From positions 62,001 to 126,000 of the forward strand of contig JACGCN010000015.1 in the NCBI GenBank assembly GCA_014905825.1: 64,000 nucleotides of DNA, written 5' to 3'. The translations under genes and the position numbers were made by a program. Below the pieces are notes generated by a model. The model was not told where the DNA came from. It searched no databases and saw only the letters and a program-made list of their open reading frames with translations. Below, in pieces: positions 3,165-14,800 of the stretch. Position 1 is the first letter of the stretch; each line of letters starts with the position of its first letter. The DNA comes from Lyophyllum atratum. Lineage: Eukaryota > Basidiomycota > Agaricomycetes > Agaricales > Lyophyllaceae.

Positions 3165-3173
3165 GGGGTCTAC
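3165..3173. repeat. Left 9-bp target-site duplication of the DUF6589/helicase transposon
   Basis: GGGGTCTAC directly precedes the left terminal inverted repeat and recurs exactly at 9456-9464, directly after the right terminal repeat. Confidence 0.88.
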
Positions 3174-3240
3174 TAGACTGGTGACCATTCCCTTAGGCTC
3201 AATTAAGACCCTCTCACGCTGAAACGTGAGAGGGGCTTAG
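3174..3240. repeat. Left transposon end: TIR plus subterminal hairpin
   Basis: The 20-bp terminal repeat at 3174-3193 is followed by a hairpin with perfect 10-bp arms: CCCTCTCACG at 3209-3218, loop CTGAAA, and CGTGAGAGGG at 3225-3234. TAAG and CTTA flank it and extend the stem past one mismatch. The right end also places a CCCTC...GAGGG hairpin right behind the terminal repeat, so terminal repeat plus hairpin looks like the shared end structure. Confidence 0.75.
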
Positions 3241-3443
3241 ATCAAAGTAGGAGTTTCATTAGGGCAATGTAAATGTTTTCATCGCTGGCTGGAGCTCTGA
3301 GCTCGTCTTAAATTCCTACAATTGGCTGAGACAAAATGTTCATTGGAGGTTTATCTAGAGGACCATGTACTGCAAGCACCAGAAAATTGTGGGAGGGGCA
3401 TAAATGACGCAAAGTAAATATCGCGCTCATTTGTGATCGTCAT

Positions 3444-3475
3444 CAGAAAGACTACAAAAGTTTGTAGTCTTTCTG
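3444..3475. repeat. Perfect 15-bp-arm palindrome in the DUF6589 leader
   Basis: CAGAAAGACTACAAA at 3444-3458, the dinucleotide AG, then the exact reverse complement at 3461-3475. It lies 49 bp before the DUF6589 start codon. It could be a transposase- or regulator-binding site, or an RNA hairpin in the leader if transcription starts upstream. Nothing else in the sequence decides between these. Confidence 0.85.
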
Positions 3476-3524
3476 CGTTTGAGATACCGGCATCAAGGCC
3501 ATCAATCAAAGTCACATCAGTCAC

Positions 3525-6286
3525 ATGTCGACAGAGACGAAGTTGGATCTCTCCATTGACGCGATCAAGGAAAACGGCTTTCGTTCCACGAACCAATTTA
3601 TCGAGGCTTACTACGACTCCAAGCATGCAGTGCAAAGTTTGCGCTTTCAAGAAGGAAAATCTTATGGTCCAGCAAATCTCCTCAACTCATGGACTCGCAA
3701 CGTACCTAAGGGCTCAGAAGCAGGTCTCAATCGTTTCATTACACAAAAGGCATCGGAGATCATGGTCCGGGAGTCCACCAAAGCCTGTCGTGATGCCACG
3801 CTCTCCATCCCATCAACCGGCCTCGACATTCCTTACCTCACATCCGAATTTGGCCTTCAGAAAATCCAGGACACCTACTCAACCCTTCTCCCATGTCTAT
3901 CCATCCTTCTCCATGCCCTTTTGACAGCAGAAAACGACTACGAACGCTGGAATAACACAGAGAAGGATGGAAAAGAGGAAATGGCTGTGAAGGTATGTTT
4001 GTACCGTGCTCGAATCTGATAGACATATCTGATCACAGCATGGTGTTAAGATGATCGTCATTATTATTAGCATGCTTTTGTTCTTCCGTAATCGAGCAAT
4101 GAATGCATTTCAACTTGTCATTGGTGTTTTCCTTGCGAGTTCTGGTGCGAGTCGACGAATCATCGACACCTTCAAATTTCAATCATATGGGTCTATCTGT
4201 CAGTTATCAGTGAGTATTTCATTCTATAACCGCTTCCTAGTCTTATTTCTGTTCAGAACAGTACAGAGAGCTCTACGAACACTATCAGAAGATGCGAAAA
4301 AGCAAGCGCGAACTTTCGCATCATTGCCTGACCGTCTTTGGGGTGTCGTGTACGACAACATCAATTTTACTCTCAGAACTGCATCTCAGCGGCTTGACTC
4401 AGCTACACGACAGCTGAATGCTACGACACTGGCCCTCTTCTCTCTTCCAATCAAGTTTACACGTCGGACATATGCCTCAGCGTTGTCCATCCTCGAGCGC
4501 AACAAACTCATTAGTGCACGACAGAAGCTCAAGGTGGATGACCTGTATCCCACTGAGGCGAAGCAGGAACAAGTTAAGGCTGCTTTTAAGCATGGTATTC
4601 GTTCCATCCTGCTCTCGCACACACCTGGGCATCTGCGGCGCCATAGAAAGACGAAAGCTTTATGCAAGCAGACATCATCGCTCAAACCCCGTATCCGTGT
4701 CCTGGGCCATGATAAGACCGAGTTTTTCCCTCTTCCAGCATTGAATGAAGAAGAAGCTTCTGTCGGTGGCACATTACGTGTTGTTGAGAAGATATTCACG
4801 TCACTCCTGGGACTCGCCGCAGAAGCCGTCGAGGTTGAGCTCCGACTTCTGGTTGGTGACTGGCTCTCAATCCGCAATCTCCGCTTGATGAAGGACGAGC
4901 GCGAGAACGAATTCACCAGCTTTCTCCGCTTCGATTGGGTGCAGGAGGTAGCAATGCCCTTCCATTTCCAACTGAACGCAATGTACTGCCTCTTTCGGAC
5001 CCACCTTGGCACAGCTGCTCAGGAAAATCCTAGCTCTCTTGAACAGCATCGCAGTCTTCTCCGTCGCTCCAAACTCGATCTCAAGAAGCCTGAGTACAAT
5101 AAGGCCAAGGAGCTCGTCATGCACTCCCTGATTGCTCGCATCCTGGATTGCACTAGGTATGAGACTTGGATATTCCGGCAAGTAAGATACTCATACATAC
5201 AAAATTAGATTGGTCCTGAAGAAGAAAAAACTTCAAGATCTTAAAGCATGGATGCCTGACTGCGCTGAATTTGAGAGAGTAGTCGGGGAGGTCTTCACAC
5301 GGTATGCATGCACTTCAGCCGCTCACGATGCACTCGAGGCTGGTGACGAGGTTCTTGCACACTCGATCCTCTTCATCCGAGATGCGTTGTTTTTCTGGGA
5401 ATTTTGTGACGCTGTTCGTGATGCTGATGTTGGCCGTATGTGGGTGGTCTATGACTTCTGGGTATTCATGTTCCGTGGGGCAGGCTGCCATAATTATGGT
5501 AACGAGATTCTGGAGATGAAGGCACAGTTTGAGCATGAGTTTCCGGCTGTACTGCGGGAGCTGGTCGCGAGTACGTGGTTGATGAATCGGTGGGGGAAGA
5601 AGGGCAGGTCCATTCCCACTGATCTCTACCTTGAGCACAACAACGGATTCACCAAGGTGCGCTAAGCTCTGTGTTGTCAAAATATTTGGAATTGACATGA
5701 AGGCCAGAACATGTTTGCGATGGGGAGCTGTGCGTCCATTGACCATGTACAAAATAAATCGTCGGCATGTGTTGAGGTCCTGCGGTGCCTATCACATGAA
5801 GTCACCTCGTGGTTTGGAGTTCGAGATTACCACCGTCGTCGGAAGGAAGTTAGCATCGATGGCGACGTCGCAGCAATATGCCTTGATCTCTCTGTCCACC
5901 AGGTTCACACTCTCACTAGGAATCAAAAGATTGCACAGCCCTCTGCAGGAACTAAAAAAAAGCAGGGCAGTGCTACAGGTGGTAAAGGTGGAAAGAAGAG
6001 GAGGCCGACGGTATGGGATGTATTGTTGGAAGGCATGAAAATGCTAACAGAAAAGAGCATGTACGAGCACTGGTTAAGACGAACTGGGAGTGATGGTACA
6101 GGTATATTTGGAGATGAAGAAGGTGAGCGGCCCGAGGAGGTAGATGGGAGTATGGAGGAATATGGGATTGAGGCGGCATTTGCTGACCCAGATGGCCAGA
6201 TGGACGTGGATGCGGCAATGGACCCCGACTTCCCGGAATGCCCATTCTCTAATGTTGGTATTAGCATGGAAAGCGGCGATGATTAG
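3525..6286 (+). CDS. DUF6589-family protein, candidate transposase (probably frameshifted)
   Basis: Inferred exons are 3525-3992, 4039-4209, 4257-5156, 5209-5656 and 5708-6286, all with GT-AG introns. The product matches DUF6589, a family expanded in Agaricomycetes with no established function. Recognisable blocks are FLASSGASRRIIDTF, VVYDNINF, LLVGDWLSIRNLR, MPFHFQLNAM, FIRDALFFWEFCDA and SSACVEVLRCLSHEV. The YDN and GDW aspartates are candidate metal-binding residues. Near 4171-4180 the frame breaks. Restoring the family-like NHMGLSVSYQ/TVQRAL join across the 47-nt intron needs about 7 extra bases (AAATTTC) removed, so this copy is likely defective unless splicing differs. The C-terminus is lysine-rich then acidic. 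The gene faces the helicase within one TIR-bounded element, which suggests a mobility role. Confidence 0.75.
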
Positions 6287-8567
6287 CTAGAACGACATAC
6301 CAGTGCAAGTAGTTGGGTATCCGCCATGAAAACATTGTTGATGATGAACTAGCAGCCATGTAGGCGGGGCAGTGGGCCGCCGGGGAATTGTCAATGAAAG
6401 GATCAGAGTCCGTTGCTTGAACGTCATGAGCACGGCGTTTTGACTTGCGCTCTTCTGCCTCTTGGGCATCACGTTCCCGTCTCGCAGTGCAGAAATCTGT
6501 GAGTAAAACGATGAGAGACTCCATCTTTGCTTCGTCAGGTATCCATCTAACAAGGCTATTGATCAGTGAAGCATTAATGCCATCACTGTTCAAGATAACA
6601 TGGGCTTTGTCGACGAGCCGGCCAATGTTTTCCTTGGTCATGACCCAGTCTCGCAAGAGGAAGGGATTTCGAGGCTTCATCTCTGTCCATCTAGAATCGC
6701 GCCAAGATATCAGCGCCTCGCGTAGATTTTCGCGTTCGGGTTTTGAGCATTGAAGCGAAGTGGATGTCAAAGGCTCTGCAGCAGCCGGTGGGTCGTTGAT
6801 GTCAGCGGGCTGGGTGACTATGTTACGCGTGTTCATGTGGTGCTGAATGACCTGTCGGTCAGATGTAGTGAGAAGACCGACTGGCTTCTCAGGATCGGCT
6901 CGGCATCTTTTCGCACTACATCCGCACTCGGGACCAACACGCAATTGCTGTTCCACCACCCATGTCACTTGTCCATCCTCGACATCACTTTCTCCATCGC
7001 CATCTTCCACTGCTTCATACCATTCAAACCCTGGAAGCTCTGGATGTGGACGGAAATGCGCACACACAAATTCTCGCATACAGGAATCCGATTGGGAGCA
7101 GTTGATATATTTGCGGGCGGGAGCATCCATGGTACGTCGTTTCTCTGCTTCTGCAAGGAGCTTCTTTGATTTTGGTTGTGTGGTATCTTCCATTTCTCCA
7201 GGTGGTTCAAAAGCCCACGGTTTGACAATCCAGATCATCGTCGCCTCTATATTTCGAGCACGGCCACCACGACACCCTTCTGGTATGCATCACTCATGCT
7301 ATCGACACCAAAAATTACGACCCTCGTGACATCAGGGATATCCAGACCCATTCTGAGCGCAAGAGTGGCGAATATGATGCGAACGTCGTTGACGCGGAAC
7401 AGGTCAGTGACCTTATCCTTGAAACCCTCTGAAGCTGTAGCCGTAAATGCATACATCAGCTTTCGAAATTCTGCTGAGACCAAGCTGCGGCAGAGCCTGA
7501 GGGCACGTCGTGCGAGTTTGCGGGTACGGAAGTAGAGGATGGTTTTCTCGAAGCTTTCGGGACCACGAGGATTGATAGGTATGAAGGGAAAGAGATCGAC
7601 CATGGATGACATTGAATATTCCATAGGGCGGACCCACTGCGCAAGATTTGGGTGGTCAGCTCCAAGATCAATCCCCCAGAATGACCGTGGATCTCCCATG
7701 CTGAGCGAGGTGTAAATGACTTCGAATGTACGGGTCGAGCAAGTGGCAGTGAGTGCCATCCATGGTATTTCGGAGCCAGCGACGATTTTGACTGTGTTAA
7801 GCTCGCCGTAAGCCTTGCGAAATTCATCCTTCCAAGTTTCGATGACGTGCGCTTCATCTACGACCATCGCAAGGATCATTTTACGGAAATCCTCCCGGCG
7901 GAATAGCTGCTTGAAGTATGAGTTGCCTAGAAGAATTTCGGGTGATGCGAAGCAGATCCGAAAGGTGCCCTTGCCAAGCTCGGTGAACACTGAGTCTTCT
8001 TGATTGTCTTCGTTTATTGCAACAGCATTGATGTTTATAGGTGCACCATTGTGGATATAGGTGGGTTTTCCATTGAACTGCAACACCTATCACGGTGGTG
8101 AGTCCTTGTCAAGTTCACGGACTGAAGGTATTGCTGCTCACCTGATCCTTCTGCAAGGACTTCAGTGGACTCAGAACGATGACTATGCCCCTGAACCTTG
8201 TGAGCTCAGCTGCTATTGCTAGCAGGACATACACGAGCGACTTTCCTGACCCTGTACCTGTGATTCCGAATGTGTCATATCCCTCGGCCGCTTTTTCGAA
8301 GATTTGGAGCTGCCACTTGGCCGGCGTGCAGGCATAGAGGCCCTCAGCAACACTGACAATATCTTGGATCGGCACTTGCTTGCCTATTCGCGGCCATGGA
8401 CTCGTCCTTGTACTTGGCTGCGGTGTAGATGACGGTGTCTTCTGGCAGCGCGGTGTGTCAAAGGGTGAGTTGCCGGGGACAGGGATGGTACTTAGAGGCG
8501 CTCGACGCGTTGGAGTGGAAGGAACAGCTGTATTACAGACATCACTTGCTCTGTCGGCGTCATTCAT
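6261..8567 (-). CDS. RecQ-like DEAH helicase of the transposon (frameshifted in motif VI)
   Basis: Exon 1 covers 8567-8142 and exon 2 starts at 8086, with a GT-AG intron at 8087-8141. Superfamily 2 motifs are in order: Walker A TGTGSGKS (about residues 104-110), SPLKSLQKDQ, CFASPE, VVDEAH, ALTAT, and motif V TLALRMGLDIPDV. Motif VI is split. The frame reads YQKGVVVAV and stops, while the next frame continues GCRGGRARNIEATMIW and then the C-terminal region. A one-base-type frameshift near 7270-7275 therefore breaks the arginine-finger motif. The C-terminal part has Cys pairs (YINCSQSDSC, CGCSAKRC) like a RecQ zinc region. An autonomous copy would presumably help process DNA during transposition. 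RecQ-like assignment is firm; the role is inferred. Confidence 0.8.
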
Positions 8568-8724
8568 CGAGTCGACGCGAGCGCGTCTTGAGCTTTGCCC
8601 AAGATATAGATAGCGTGCAAATATAGATAGCTTATGTCATGTCACGCTGTAGAGACCGGCAACTAAATCGATTCAAAAGTTTTCTGATGTTTTGCATTGC
8701 CTTATGATTTACCCTAGTTTGGTA

Positions 8725-8751
8725 CAAGACCGTCCACACGTGGACGTCTTG
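8725..8751. repeat. Imperfect palindrome near the right transposon end
   Basis: CAAGAC (8725-8730), one unpaired C, GTCCAC, centre AC, GTGGAC and GTCTTG (8746-8751) form a 12-bp-arm palindrome. It lies 5 bp outside the internal end-like repeat at 8757. Confidence 0.7.
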
Positions 8752-8756
8752 GTATG

Positions 8757-9455
8757 AGACTAACCATTCCCTCACTGAGAGACAAGTCTCAAGTTGAGGG
8801 ACTGGCAAAGCTGAGTTTAAACTAGGAGAGAGCAAACATCAAAAACACATGACCTCGCAATCGGACATCCCGTTTGAGTTACATGTTACGGATTAGGACA
8901 GGATGGTAAACAAGTGTTTTGCCAGTCTATAGCTCTCTATTAGCTCTTCCAGCTATGTCCCTACCCTCAGCGAGCGAATGCAAGCAATCAGATTGTAGAC
9001 TCTGACTGAAATTGAACCTCTGCTCTCCTCAGCCATCTACCCCAGTGGACTTTTGGCCGATGAGAGGAAGATTGTGTGGTGAGCTTCCTTTGCATGGACC
9101 GTTATGTACTGGGACTCGAGCGCCTTGCGCTATTCAGCTTAAGCCGCACTGACAGCATGAAACAGCGAGGATTCAGTGGTCAATGCGGGTACGGGTAGCG
9201 GGTTGCTTTTTATAGAGACACGTCTTGAGACAGGCTCGAGGTAGGTTGAGCCGATGTGAAGATTGAAATGGACGCGACGGGGAGCGCATCTGCCTCAGTG
9301 TTCCCAATCCGTAAGATGTAACCCAAACGAGACGTCTGATTGATGCGGAGGTCACTTTCTTTTGATGTTTGCTCTCTCCTACTAGTTTAAACTCAGCTAT
9401 GCCAGTCCCTCTACTCGAGGCTTGTCTCTCAGTAGAGGGAACGGTCACCAGTCTA
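8757..9455. repeat. Foldback unit forming the transposon's right end
   Basis: About 90 bp at 8757-8844 recur in inverted orientation at 9360-9454. Shared blocks include CATTCCCT/CGTTCCCT, ACTGAGAGACAAG, GAGGGACTGGCA, GCTGAGTTTAAACTA and GGAGAGAGCAAACATCAAAA. Each arm contains a small CCCTC...GAGGG hairpin. The roughly 515-bp centre has no coding sequence. It looks like a non-autonomous derivative of the same family that forms, or is nested against, the right end: the outer boundary at 9455 is shared with the big element, and the inner end has no target duplication of its own. Confidence 0.78.
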
Positions 9456-9464
9456 GGGGTCTAC
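9456..9464. repeat. Right 9-bp target-site duplication
   Basis: GGGGTCTAC, an exact copy of 3165-3173, lies directly outside the right terminal inverted repeat. Confidence 0.88.
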
Positions 9465-10100: not shown

Positions 10101-11846
10101 TCACACGGGTGCGTTAAAAACCCAGTGGGAAAAGCTACCGGTGGCAGGAACATTGAGAAGGAGAACCGTACAAGTTGCCCTAACCGTTTCCTGCCAACCA
10201 GGTGCCGAGAGCCTCGTTTTCATCGAGGTCTTTTCCGGAAAGCCATCGATCGTGTTCTTGACCATATCCGGCGTAGCGCAGAGGTATTGATGACCGCGGC
10301 CGCGACGCCTTTGGGCGACGATCTTGTCGACCAACCATTCTTCCATCCCGTCCTCCGTAACGACCGGACCTGGCTCAGGGAATGCGCGGGACGGGAAGAG
10401 TTTGTTGTCGTTCTCGTGGAAGGGGAGAAGCTCGGAGGTATGGAAGGTGTCATATGTCTGAGGGGAGTTCGGCATGCTAATGGTGACATTCGAGGTATCC
10501 TTGTGAATGCCTGTAATCTCGAAGGGACCGTCGTAACGCGGCATGAACTTCGCCGCTCGCTTTTCGCCCTTCTGTTTGAAGAGTTTACGACGGTTCTTTG
10601 TCGATAAGCGAACGCGTTGTCCTATCTTGAAGGGGAATTTAGCGGAGCGCGTTGAGTTCGCCTGCGCGGCCTGTTGGATTTTCGCCTGTACGAGGTTATC
10701 TGCAGCTGTGCACGTGTCGAGAGCGATGCGTTTGGCAATCGCATGTGCGTCGACCTCCTCTACCGAGGCCGATGGGCCAGGGGTTACCAAGGGTGGAATC
10801 ACCCTCGGGGAACGACCTGTCCGCAAGTAAAATGGGGAAAATCCGGTTGACTTATTCACGGTATTCATGATGTCAAAACGTACTCGTTTAAGGGCCTTGG
10901 ACCAGCCATGTTGGTTCCGATCGACGTGGTAGCGGAGGCACTGATTGATCGTCTTGTTAGACCTCTCGCTGGCACCGTCGGTTTGAGGATGGTATGAAGA
11001 AGACATCTTGACCTTAACGCCAATCAGTCTGGTGAGATGCTTCCAAAATTTCGATACGAAGAGTTTGTCGCGATCGCAGACAATGTTTGAGGGTAGGCCG
11101 TTTTCACAGTACCAATTGTCGAAAAAGAGCTCGGCCAATCCGCGTGCGGTGAGATCAGTTCGAGTAGCCACAATTTGGATATCGGAGTTTAACCTGTCGG
11201 TCATGGATAGTATGCAATTGAAACCGTTTTCCTCGGGCAAAGGGCCGACGAAGTCGATCGCGACCGATTCGCATCGGAAATCAGGGACAGGCAGCGGATG
11301 CAAGGGACCAAGAGGGGTAGCTGTCGTGGCTTTAAAACGTTGACAATCCCTGCAGGCGGGGATGTAGCTAAGCTCTAAATCGCGACGCATTTTTGGCCAG
11401 TAGTATGCGTCGCGCAGTGTCGCGTAGGACTTGTCGAAACCGAAGTGGCCAAGCGCGTCGTGCGCAGCCTGGAAAATGGATTCCCGCACGTTCCCAACGC
11501 GAGGAATAATCAGGCGTGATCCGAGAAACCAAAGTTCGTCTTCTAGACGAAGCAGCGGCATTCCCGGTGCAGCAGCTATCAAGTTTTTACACCACGGGTC
11601 GGCGGCGTAGCCGGCTATGATGTCCTTCAATATCGCTTTGTCAATTGAAACTGAAAGCGAAGTGGTCTTCGCGGGCGTCAGCGCATTAACGCGATGGGCC
11701 AAGGAGAAGGCGGATGAGAAGGGGCAGGAGAGCGACGCGGGCAAGATGGCGTTAATGCAATGTGAGATAATGTCGTCGTCGTGCATGCTGCAGAAGTCAG
11801 GGGCGTCACGAACGGCGTCGGAAGAGTCCTTCATGCTGTCAGGCAA
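10101..11846 (-). pseudogene. Integrase and chromodomain part of pol, separated by frameshifts
   Basis: This frame continues pol after RNase H. It has the zinc-binding HDALGHFG...CRDC region, then the catalytic core with Asp in AIDFVGPLP, Asp in IVCDRDKLF and Glu in DGASERSNKT, giving the D,D,E set. A C-terminal GPFEITGI region precedes a chromodomain start, EEWLVDKIVAQRRRGRG. The chromodomain then shifts frame near 10279-10284: the other frame continues LRYAGYGQEHDRWLSG and ENEALGTW and stops at 10180-10182, the likely original pol end. The link to RNase H is also out of frame near 11872-11877, where ADALSRLPDSMK is read from the downstream frame. Both breaks look like small deletions in a young copy. 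Confidence 0.87.
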
Positions 11847-14800
11847 TCGTGACAGGGCATCTGCGGCCGAATCACATAGAGGATTTTGAAATCGAACTGT
11901 GATAAAAATTCCACCCAGCGCGATTGCCGGCGGGAAAGGTCGCGCTGCTCATCGAAGTTCTCCAGGGTTTTGTGGTCTGTGAAGACGACGAACTTCATCC
12001 CGAAGAGGTCGGAACGCCATTTTCGGAGGGCTCGAATGATCGCTAACATTTCCTTTTCGTGCACAGGGTAGTTGAGTTCGGCGCCCTTAAAGGTCATGGA
12101 ATCGAACGCGACCGGTCGTGCTGTTTCCCAGGTGTCGCCGAAGGATAGTACAGCTCCGGAGCGCTTATCGCTAGCGTCGGTAGTCACAAAAATCGTTTTG
12201 GAGGGGTCGTCGTGATCTATGACTGTCAAGCATTCGCAGCTCACGACGAGCTCCTTGATTGCGTCGAAAGCACGCTGATGCCGAGGAAGCCAAGGGGGGA
12301 AGACTTTGTCGCAGCCCAAACCCGTCAATTCGTTGAGGACGCTCGTGTGGTCCGCGAGTTTAGGCAAGAACACGGCCAGGTAACGTACCAGCCCAATAAA
12401 ACCCCGAACGTCCGTTGCGGACTTGGGGCGCGGCCAAGCGAGTATTCGGTCAACCTTTTTTCCGTCAGGCTCGATGCCATTTGCAGAGATGTGATGGCCC
12501 AGAAAGTTAATACTTGTGCAGTACAGGTGCGTTTTCGCCGGGTTGACGTATAAACGAGCTGCGCGTAGCGCCTCCAGCACTGCGCGTACGTTACGATGGT
12601 GCTCTTCCAAGCTGTCAGACCAGATGACTATGTCGTCTAGGTATACGTGGCAGATTTTGCCAATTAAATGGCGCAGTGCGGCCGTGACACGACGTTGATG
12701 GATCGCCGGGGCGTTCCTCAGTCCCATCGGCATCACCAGCCATTCGTACAAGCCGAAAGGAGTACTGACGGCCGTCAATGGTACGTGGTCAGGGTGCATG
12801 GGAGTTTGGAAGAAACTATTGGTCATGTCAATGGTTGCGAAGAATTTTCCCTTCGCGCAGTCATGAAGAATATCATCCACCCTTGGGATCGGGTGGTTGT
12901 CGGGAACAGTGGCCGCATTCAGTTGCCGGTAGTCGTTAACCCATCTAGGGAGAACTGTTGGGTCGGCTTTGGGAATGATGAAGGCAGGGGATGCGAATTG
13001 GGAAGAGGATGGCTGGATACGCCCGGCCTCGAGATGTTGGCCAATCAGGGTTTTCCATGCCTCGCGGTATTTGCGAGGGCACTGATACGTTCGCGTCTTT
13101 ATCTCGTGATTCGCAGTCTTTAGATGAATCTCTGCGAGAACGTCGCGAGGGAGTTCGCGAGCATGCGGGATAGGTTCAAAGATGTCTTTAAATTCCTTTT
13201 TGAATTTTGACTCGTGCTTCTTGAGTTCCTCGATGGAAGAGAGCTCAACAATGCGGTCGCGAACCGCGGCGGCCACATTAAGCGTTTCGGTCTCCAGCAG
13301 TTGTCCGGTAGAAACAAGGACATGAAGCCGTGCCGCGCAAGCGGCTTTCAACTCAGATATCATTGCTTTGCGCAGAACCTTAACTTGAGCTACGGTCTTC
13401 CTGAACGAAATGAATTTACGAGTACGCTGCGGTGTTACAGGAAGAGGGTTCAACAAGTTATAGTTACTGCGTGTATCGATGACTGTGCGGGCGAAGTGAT
13501 CGGAAACGATATGGTTGGCATGAAGGAAAGGGAGGCCGAGAATGATAGGCGAACAGAGTTTAGGCGCGATGATAGCGCGTACAGTCGTTGAGGTCCATGC
13601 TTGGTCAAGTGAAGTAAGGGACAATTTACAATATTCAGTCAAGGCGGTGGCTTGCGATGCGGAGTTCGATAGTGCGACGTCAACGAGAAGGGGCTCATGC
13701 AGGGTGCGACGTTGAAGACCGAGGTGGTCGACTAAGTCTGCGTTTATCAGGACTAGGTGTGAGCCACAATCAATTAAGGATGATACAGGAACGGGGTGGT
13801 CAATGTTCGGTCCAGCCGCGAGGCCTTTCCAGACGTAGTGGGGTATGGAAATGGGAATATGACTTACGTCGGAAGCATCGTCTCCTCCAGCGTCACTGGA
13901 GTCAGGCTCGATGTCCGAAGATGACGAGGACGTAGGCATCACTACGGCGATGGAAGGACCTGCAGTGGTCTGGGTCCAATCCACGACTGCGGCTGCAGGT
14001 TTACCCTGGCGGCGGGGCGCGTTCTGGGGAGCAGACATGGAGGATCCCGCACCGCTACGAGCCTTCGCGGTGGCGACGTCGGCGGCGGTCAGGTGCTTGT
14101 AGGTAGCGCCGTCGGGGAAGTCATAGAGACAAGCGCGGGGTTTGCACGCCACGAAAACCTGCCTGCATTTGGTGCAACCCGAGTTGGCATGCAAGAGCTC
14201 ACGCTCGTCGTCTTGGAGCGGAGGCAAGGGGACGAAGGTACCGTTGCCACGGGATGAACGCGCAGGGGCGGCTGGCTTCCCACGCGACGAGAATGAGGTG
14301 TTGTACGTTCGAGAGTTGGCGGCGAGCGTCCGCTCGCGCTTGTGAGCACGGGACGCCGCCTCCTCCGCCTCTTCACGAAGTCGTTTGGACTTCTCGTGTC
14401 GCTTGTCGTCAAGTCTGCGGATTTCATGAAGCCACGCGTCGAAGTCAGCGATGTTGGCGATCTCTTTGTCGTCGTACTTGCGACGCAGCATGGTGTCCAA
14501 GTTGGCTTCGAGAAGATTGCGGAGGGCGTTGGTCTTGGGGTCGAGGTAGGATGTGGTTCCGAAAAGAAAGGTGTTCATGGATTGGATGTGGGCCGACCAA
14601 TCCCAGAAGGACCAGAGGCCGGGGTCGAGTCTGAGGCTACCTATCTCCCCACGAAGTTTGTTTTCCCAATTCAGGGGGAGATATTTCTTCTTCAGAGCGG
14701 CGATGAACTCAGGGAAGGAAAGAGCCACGATGCGTTCACGGTCCCCGTCGTACCAATCGCGAATACGATTGTCGCGGACGCCCTGCATCGCGCGGCGCAC

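Follow-up and report, generated by a model that had tools for sequence, protein, structure and literature searches.

In a 64,000-nucleotide stretch of the Lyophyllum atratum genome (contig JACGCN010000015.1, positions 62,001 to 126,000; hereafter the window), one DNA transposon is nested within another to which it is related. The inner element carries a gene for DUF6589, a Pfam family (PF20231) of unassigned function, together with a RecQ-like helicase gene, and it interrupts, 20 bp from the left end, a non-autonomous fold-back element that belongs to a sister family. We regard the nesting and the 9-10-bp duplications as firmly established; for the account as a whole, in which DUF6589 is an enzyme of the DDE type, we estimate a probability of about 0.85. 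A sequence-only reading had treated the interval as one transposon bounded by terminal inverted repeats (TIRs), its boundaries directly visible; that picture does not survive the comparisons below, which resolve the following parts.

3165-3173, unstranded: target duplication of the outer element, left copy (9 bp, GGGGTCTAC)
3174-3193, plus strand: left 20 bp of the outer element, equal to its left TIR (from the repeat scan and the rejoined alignment)
3184-3193, unstranded: target duplication of the inner element, left copy (10 bp, ACCATTCCCT)
3194-8762, unstranded: inner transposon of 5,569 bp, with ends TAGGCTCA... and ...TGAGACTA, the same ends as the C108 element
8763-8772, unstranded: target duplication of the inner element, right copy (10 bp, exact)
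8763-9455, plus strand: remainder of the outer element, which folds back and ends in the right TIR (9436-9455)
9456-9464, unstranded: target duplication of the outer element, right copy (9 bp)

A DUF6589 element nested in an older element

The outermost repeats are as originally described: the two copies of GGGGTCTAC are identical, and the 20-bp TIRs just inside them pair at 19 of 20 positions. When the whole window was scanned for a 9-bp direct repeat immediately outside a 20-bp inverted repeat, the best pair, with one mismatch, was this one and the runner-up had six, which excludes chance. These repeats are, however, the ends of the ~703-bp non-autonomous element and do not bound the DUF6589 element, which has its own ends at 3194 and 8762 and its own 10-bp duplication.

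Relatives were sought in the genome (64.76 Mb, 151 contigs), from which all relatives described here come. A related element with DUF6589 and helicase genes lies at C108:1589830-1595443. Its ends, TAGTCTCATACC... and TAGGCTCACATAAG..., correspond to window positions 8762 and 3194 and not to the outer TIRs; homology between the two begins at 3193/3194 and ends at 8762, and the C108 element has a 10-bp target duplication of its own, ACTGGCATGC. A genome search with 124 bases of the inner left end returned six other places, five of which reach the terminal base. At four of the five sites fetched, homology starts exactly at TAGGCTCA, position 3194, identity to the inner left end being 24-25 in the first 30 bases and 7-9 in the 30 outside; the fifth site, L094, lacked a match to the search motif and is not counted. 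Removing the inner element and one copy of its duplication by script leaves an outer element of 703 bp, with no genes of its own, whose alignment to the two C87 element ends and to several shorter elements or miniature inverted-repeat transposable elements (MITEs) passes through the join without interruption. The C108 ends, the homology starts at 3194 and this rejoined alignment together place the DUF6589 element inside an older, non-autonomous one. Insertion 20 bp inside the outer left end also accounts for the outer ends having no more than 20 bp in common, although 8763-9455 folds back. The inner ends are of the TAG...CTA type, and the inner duplication can alternatively be read as 9 bp if one end is moved by one base.

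Other searches added little. The inner right tip gave 5 matches against 2 in the control, and GGGGTCTAC alone gave 281, below the 537 of its reversed control; both are uninformative. An empty-site search for the outer element returned only C141:1626963-1627050, a repeat copy running through one GGGGTCTAC that shares few left-flank bases and is weak evidence.

We propose that the ~703-bp fold-back element would have inserted first, generating the 9-bp duplication, and that the inner element would then have entered it, generating the 10-bp one. Transposition would follow ordinary DDE chemistry, the transposase cutting at the TAG ends, which would then be joined to the two target strands at points 9-10 bp apart, and the helicase would assist. 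The outer element was presumably moved by the DUF6589 protein of C87/C20/C95-type elements, which share its ends. The corrected boundary matters in practice, as a repeat-library consensus would otherwise be wrong.

DUF6589 as the probable transposase

The inner element has two genes, arranged tail to tail as the sequence-only reading had it.

3525-6286, plus strand: DUF6589 gene, putative DDE transposase (PF20231; conserved acidic residues)
6261-8636, minus strand: RecQ-like helicase in frames 8115-8636, 7247-8086 and 6261-7289, with the first ATG at 8567

The final open frames of the two share 26 bp (6261-6286). Pfam identifies both, and among seven frames scanned in the window element it recognised only DUF6589 and a helicase, and no nuclease. 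The DUF6589 gene model, built by a script that enumerates GT..AG introns, is a computational prediction; it has five exons (introns 3993-4038, 4210-4266, 5157-5208 and 5657-5707) and encodes 851 amino acids.

A genome search with PF20231 gave 40 matches, grouped into 21 loci, of which 14 were viewed with wide flanks and seven (C76, C74, C71, C68, C130, C73 and C116) with flanks of ~1.5 kb. At eight of the 14 wide-flank loci we found both ends and an exact duplication, each with DUF6589 and a helicase. The eight duplications (five of 9 bp, three of 10 bp) all differ in sequence; besides those of the window and C108 elements, they are as follows.

C87 element: GGGTCGTGG, 9 bp
C24 element: GAAGCAGAG, 9 bp
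C13 element: CTCGTTACT, 9 bp
C64 element: AATGCTGCC, 9 bp
C20 element: TGATGTAAC, 9 bp
C95 element: AGATCGACAT, 10 bp

For C13, an 8-bp candidate was superseded by the TIR-led 9-bp pair.

We aligned 14 DUF6589 proteins, from the window and 13 other loci, with exon pieces joined by eye; the duplicates or fragments C75 (twice), C68, C130, C71, C73 and C116 stood outside this alignment. Residues invariant in all 14 include D243, N244, E376, D411, H446, D556 and D583, and D648 and E652 are invariant in the ten proteins that include that exon. D243 lies in [YSD..]DN behind a hydrophobic stretch, D411 in [GN]Dx, and E652 in LEH or QEH/QET (LEH/QEH.N). From this pattern D243, D411 and E652 may be read as a catalytic D, D and E, with ~240 residues separating D411 from E652. 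The YDN and GDW aspartates, earlier proposed as the first two acidic positions, thus keep that assignment (14/14) and gain a candidate third partner in E652 (10/10); picking E652 as the third residue is an interpretation, since other invariant acidic residues exist. The recurrence of DUF6589 and helicase in eight elements with TIRs and exact 9- or 10-bp duplications, together with the invariant acidic residues, upholds as probable the suggestion that DUF6589 is the DDE transposase of its element family.

Several observations pull the other way. At six of the 14 wide-flank loci the pair of ends is missing: C57:326k and the two near-identical C75 copies have one end each, where homology breaks within about two bases of a TIR (the other C57:326k end was not found, and the other C75 ends lie at a palindrome centre), C97 and C78 yielded no ends with wide flanks, and C79 has none, a large inverted repeat making the end search there meaningless. 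The invariant E376, D556, D583 and D648 offer further acidic candidates. For the putative RNase H-like core, single-sequence AlphaFold2 on DUF6589 exon 3 gave a mean predicted local distance difference test score of 35.4, too low for a fold to be read from it, and a PDB profile search with DUF6589 returned no transposase, only a single weak unrelated row (E 0.081). The relatives all come from a single genome, and so does the weak empty-site evidence.

Two alternatives bear on this account. That 3174-9455 is after all a single transposon, with 20-bp TIRs and GGGGTCTAC and with a right end that merely contains an internal fold-back, we consider highly improbable: its duplication is exact and its outer TIRs pair at all but one base, and the outer-type relatives C87, C20 and C95 do hold DUF6589 and a helicase, but the C108 ends and four other sites coincide with 3194 or 8762, a second exact 10-bp duplication stands at the inner ends, and the rejoined 703-bp element aligns to its relatives across the join. 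DUF6589 might instead be an accessory protein in an element mobilised in trans by another transposase. This is improbable, given that Pfam recognises no genes in the element besides DUF6589 and the helicase, that the pair recurs in eight elements built alike, and that the acidic residues are kept in D..D..E order.

DUF6589 as probable transposase of a nested element gives this family both an element context and a likely function. If the assignment is right, DUF6589 genes are transposon genes, to be masked and not counted as host genes. In the one literature library searched, the term DUF6589 was not found, and mentions of PF20231 look unrelated by title and abstract. The name DUF6589 is also applied to animal proteins, which would agree with the range given by the Kojima 2020 title. 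A search of viral contigs and prokaryote genomes with an alignment of two proteins found no relative.

Some loci are themselves rearranged. C75:658232-670436 (L061, L013, L065, L014, L062) is a ~12.2-kb palindrome with arms 99.9% identical, in which two DUF6589/helicase copies stand back to back and terminate at a TIR; a copy 99.6% identical is found at C57:323900-328730. At C79:401944-409676 (L083, L010, L084) a DUF6589 gene is flanked by inverted arms with a helicase frame in each, either a real palindrome or an assembly artefact.

The helicase partner

The best families and solved relatives of the window helicase are of RecQ type, although one exon scored 97 bits against recQ_fam, under the curated cut-off of 219.8. 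The window copy is probably not functional, because there is a change of frame around motif VI (7247-7289) and the protein is split among three frames, whereas the C108 helicase is intact: a single 759-amino-acid frame with GTGSGKS, VVDEAHV and FQKGGRGGRARN, recognised by Pfam as DEAD and Helicase_C. A Walker A motif is present in all eight DUF6589-helicase elements.

Used as a query, a window helicase exon detected 17 places in the genome, 14 of them at most 2.3 kb from a DUF6589 locus (the C79 inverted repeat contributes two, one per arm, and the C75 palindrome another two); the remaining three are C76:11474, C118 and C73:44769; the C20 and C95 helicases were detected with another exon. The two genes are convergent in the window, C108, C24, C97, C79 (one arm), C78, C73, C87, C20 and C95, and divergent in C13, C64, C57:326k and both C75 copies. 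In a tree of the 14 DUF6589 proteins, C13, C64, C57:326k and C76 grouped together with support 1.000.

Palindromes near the element ends

Subterminal palindromes in the window include the following.

3204-3239, unstranded: subterminal palindrome of the inner left end (fold z -5.6)
8725-8751, unstranded: subterminal palindrome of the inner right end (fold z -2.5)
9400-9447, unstranded: subterminal palindrome of the outer right end (fold z -2.8)

For the eight elements, the outer element and eight MITEs, we folded the terminal 60 bases on either side with DNA energies. A z of -2 or below was reached at 27 of these 34 ends (24 distinct sequences), compared with none of 31 flanking windows and 4 of 96 interior windows. 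No clear hairpin was seen at four of the 18 element ends (C24 left and right, C13 left, C64 right).

Fourteen ends in a common register were aligned for covariation, leaving out of the 24 both inner ends, the C108 and C24 ends, C13 left, C64 right, mL041 right and the MITE beside C108. From the folds of the aligned ends themselves we derived a stem of 12 pairs and compared it with 500 shuffles. None of the shuffles reached its paired cells (92.6%, against 76.8 in shuffles), its changes on both sides (25 cells against 8.4) or its covariation (0.439 against 0.174; slid versions gave at most 0.190). The seven double-change pairs were reached by 64 of 500 shuffles and the 11 further pair types by 411 of 500, and neither lends the stem support. 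Covariation of the palindrome arms is only suggestive, because the sequences are related and the structure was taken from the same sequences, both of which favour the result.

One speculative and rather doubtful possibility is that the ends are presented as hairpins, with an unpaired TAG tip of ~10 bases and a stem conserved in its pairing and not in its sequence; the RecQ-like helicase that the element encodes would extrude or unwind these hairpins for the DDE transposase. Such handling would explain the presence of a helicase in a cut-and-paste element. The palindromes may alternatively be functionless, created by template switching during replication, which would also keep their arms matched; this has an appreciable minority chance. 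Template switching has been proposed for RNA hairpins (in the accessible text of PMC8794818) and a clear hairpin is wanting at the four element ends named above, but the distance from the tip is similar in several families, and flanks and interiors all but lack such folds (0/31 and 4/96). The end palindromes are a testable feature that might account for helicase carriage.

As a separate observation, the inner target duplication (3184-3193) overlies the 5' arm of the outer left subterminal palindrome; being a single case, the coincidence may be due to chance.

The outer TIR family and neighbouring sequence

The 20-bp outer TIR, allowing up to three mismatches, has 84 matches in the genome and its reversed control has 4. 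Eleven short places picked solely for two facing TIRs all proved to have 9-bp duplications (nine exact, two with one mismatch); judged by shared flanks they represent seven distinct sites, six exact and one with a mismatch. Among 16 further TIR loci scanned for a partner with a duplication of up to three mismatches, 11 had one (seven exact, four with one mismatch) and L043, L044, L047, L056 and L057 did not. This second set counts for less, as the duplication itself was the selection criterion and some of its sites already occur in the first.

Some MITEs of this family are very small (68-93 bp), having 9-bp duplications and little beyond two facing ends; examples are C97:154422-154489, C103:157772-157839 and C68:834603-834684. 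A 538-bp MITE adjoins the C108 element (L077:7510-8047, equal to C108:1595509-1596046), with identical 20-bp TIRs, TAGTCTCGTGCCCATCCTCT, an exact 9-bp duplication, CCTGCCGTC, and ends resembling those of the C24 element.

Beside the nested pair in the window, positions 10101-11948 of the minus strand hold a 615-amino-acid frame that matches Integrase_H2C2 above its cut-off and, weakly, rve and SH3_Tf2-1; it is the last part of a Ty3/Gypsy-like polyprotein.

Comparison with known transposon superfamilies

According to the accessible text of PMC10045372, the superfamily Academ includes AcademH, with a helicase and 9- or 10-bp duplications, and AcademX, with a nuclease and duplications of 3 or 4 bp, the author linking length to enzyme. 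The portions available of two other papers place AcademH at low copy number in fungi including Basidiomycota (PMC10799480) and report, from a mushroom, that non-autonomous Academ elements were noticed and autonomous ones sought (PMC8290104); the word Academ is absent from the available part of PMC12730594. The DUF6589 family resembles AcademH in pairing its putative transposase with a helicase (in 8/8 elements), in its 9- or 10-bp duplications and in its occurrence in a basidiomycete. The AcademH comparison made by the sequence-only reading therefore fits by duplication length and helicase (PMC10045372, accessible text), and on these two features the family is AcademH-like. It differs from AcademX, as its duplications are 9-10 bp long and it carries a helicase with no nuclease among the seven frames scanned.

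The family might instead belong to another or undescribed superfamily with a RecQ-like helicase, such as a relative of KolobokH or a separate lineage. Fungal KolobokH is likewise a DNA transposon with a RecQ helicase (PMC9587614, accessible text). We think this unlikely, since Kolobok duplications are the 4-bp TTAA, whereas the eight elements here have eight different duplications of 9 or 10 bp, without common sequence, the lengths described for AcademH. Hairpins near the ends also recall the IS200/IS605 family and Helitrons, although, as far as the descriptions available go, those use HUH or Y1 enzymes, whereas the elements described here combine TIRs and target duplications with an acidic pattern of the DDE type.

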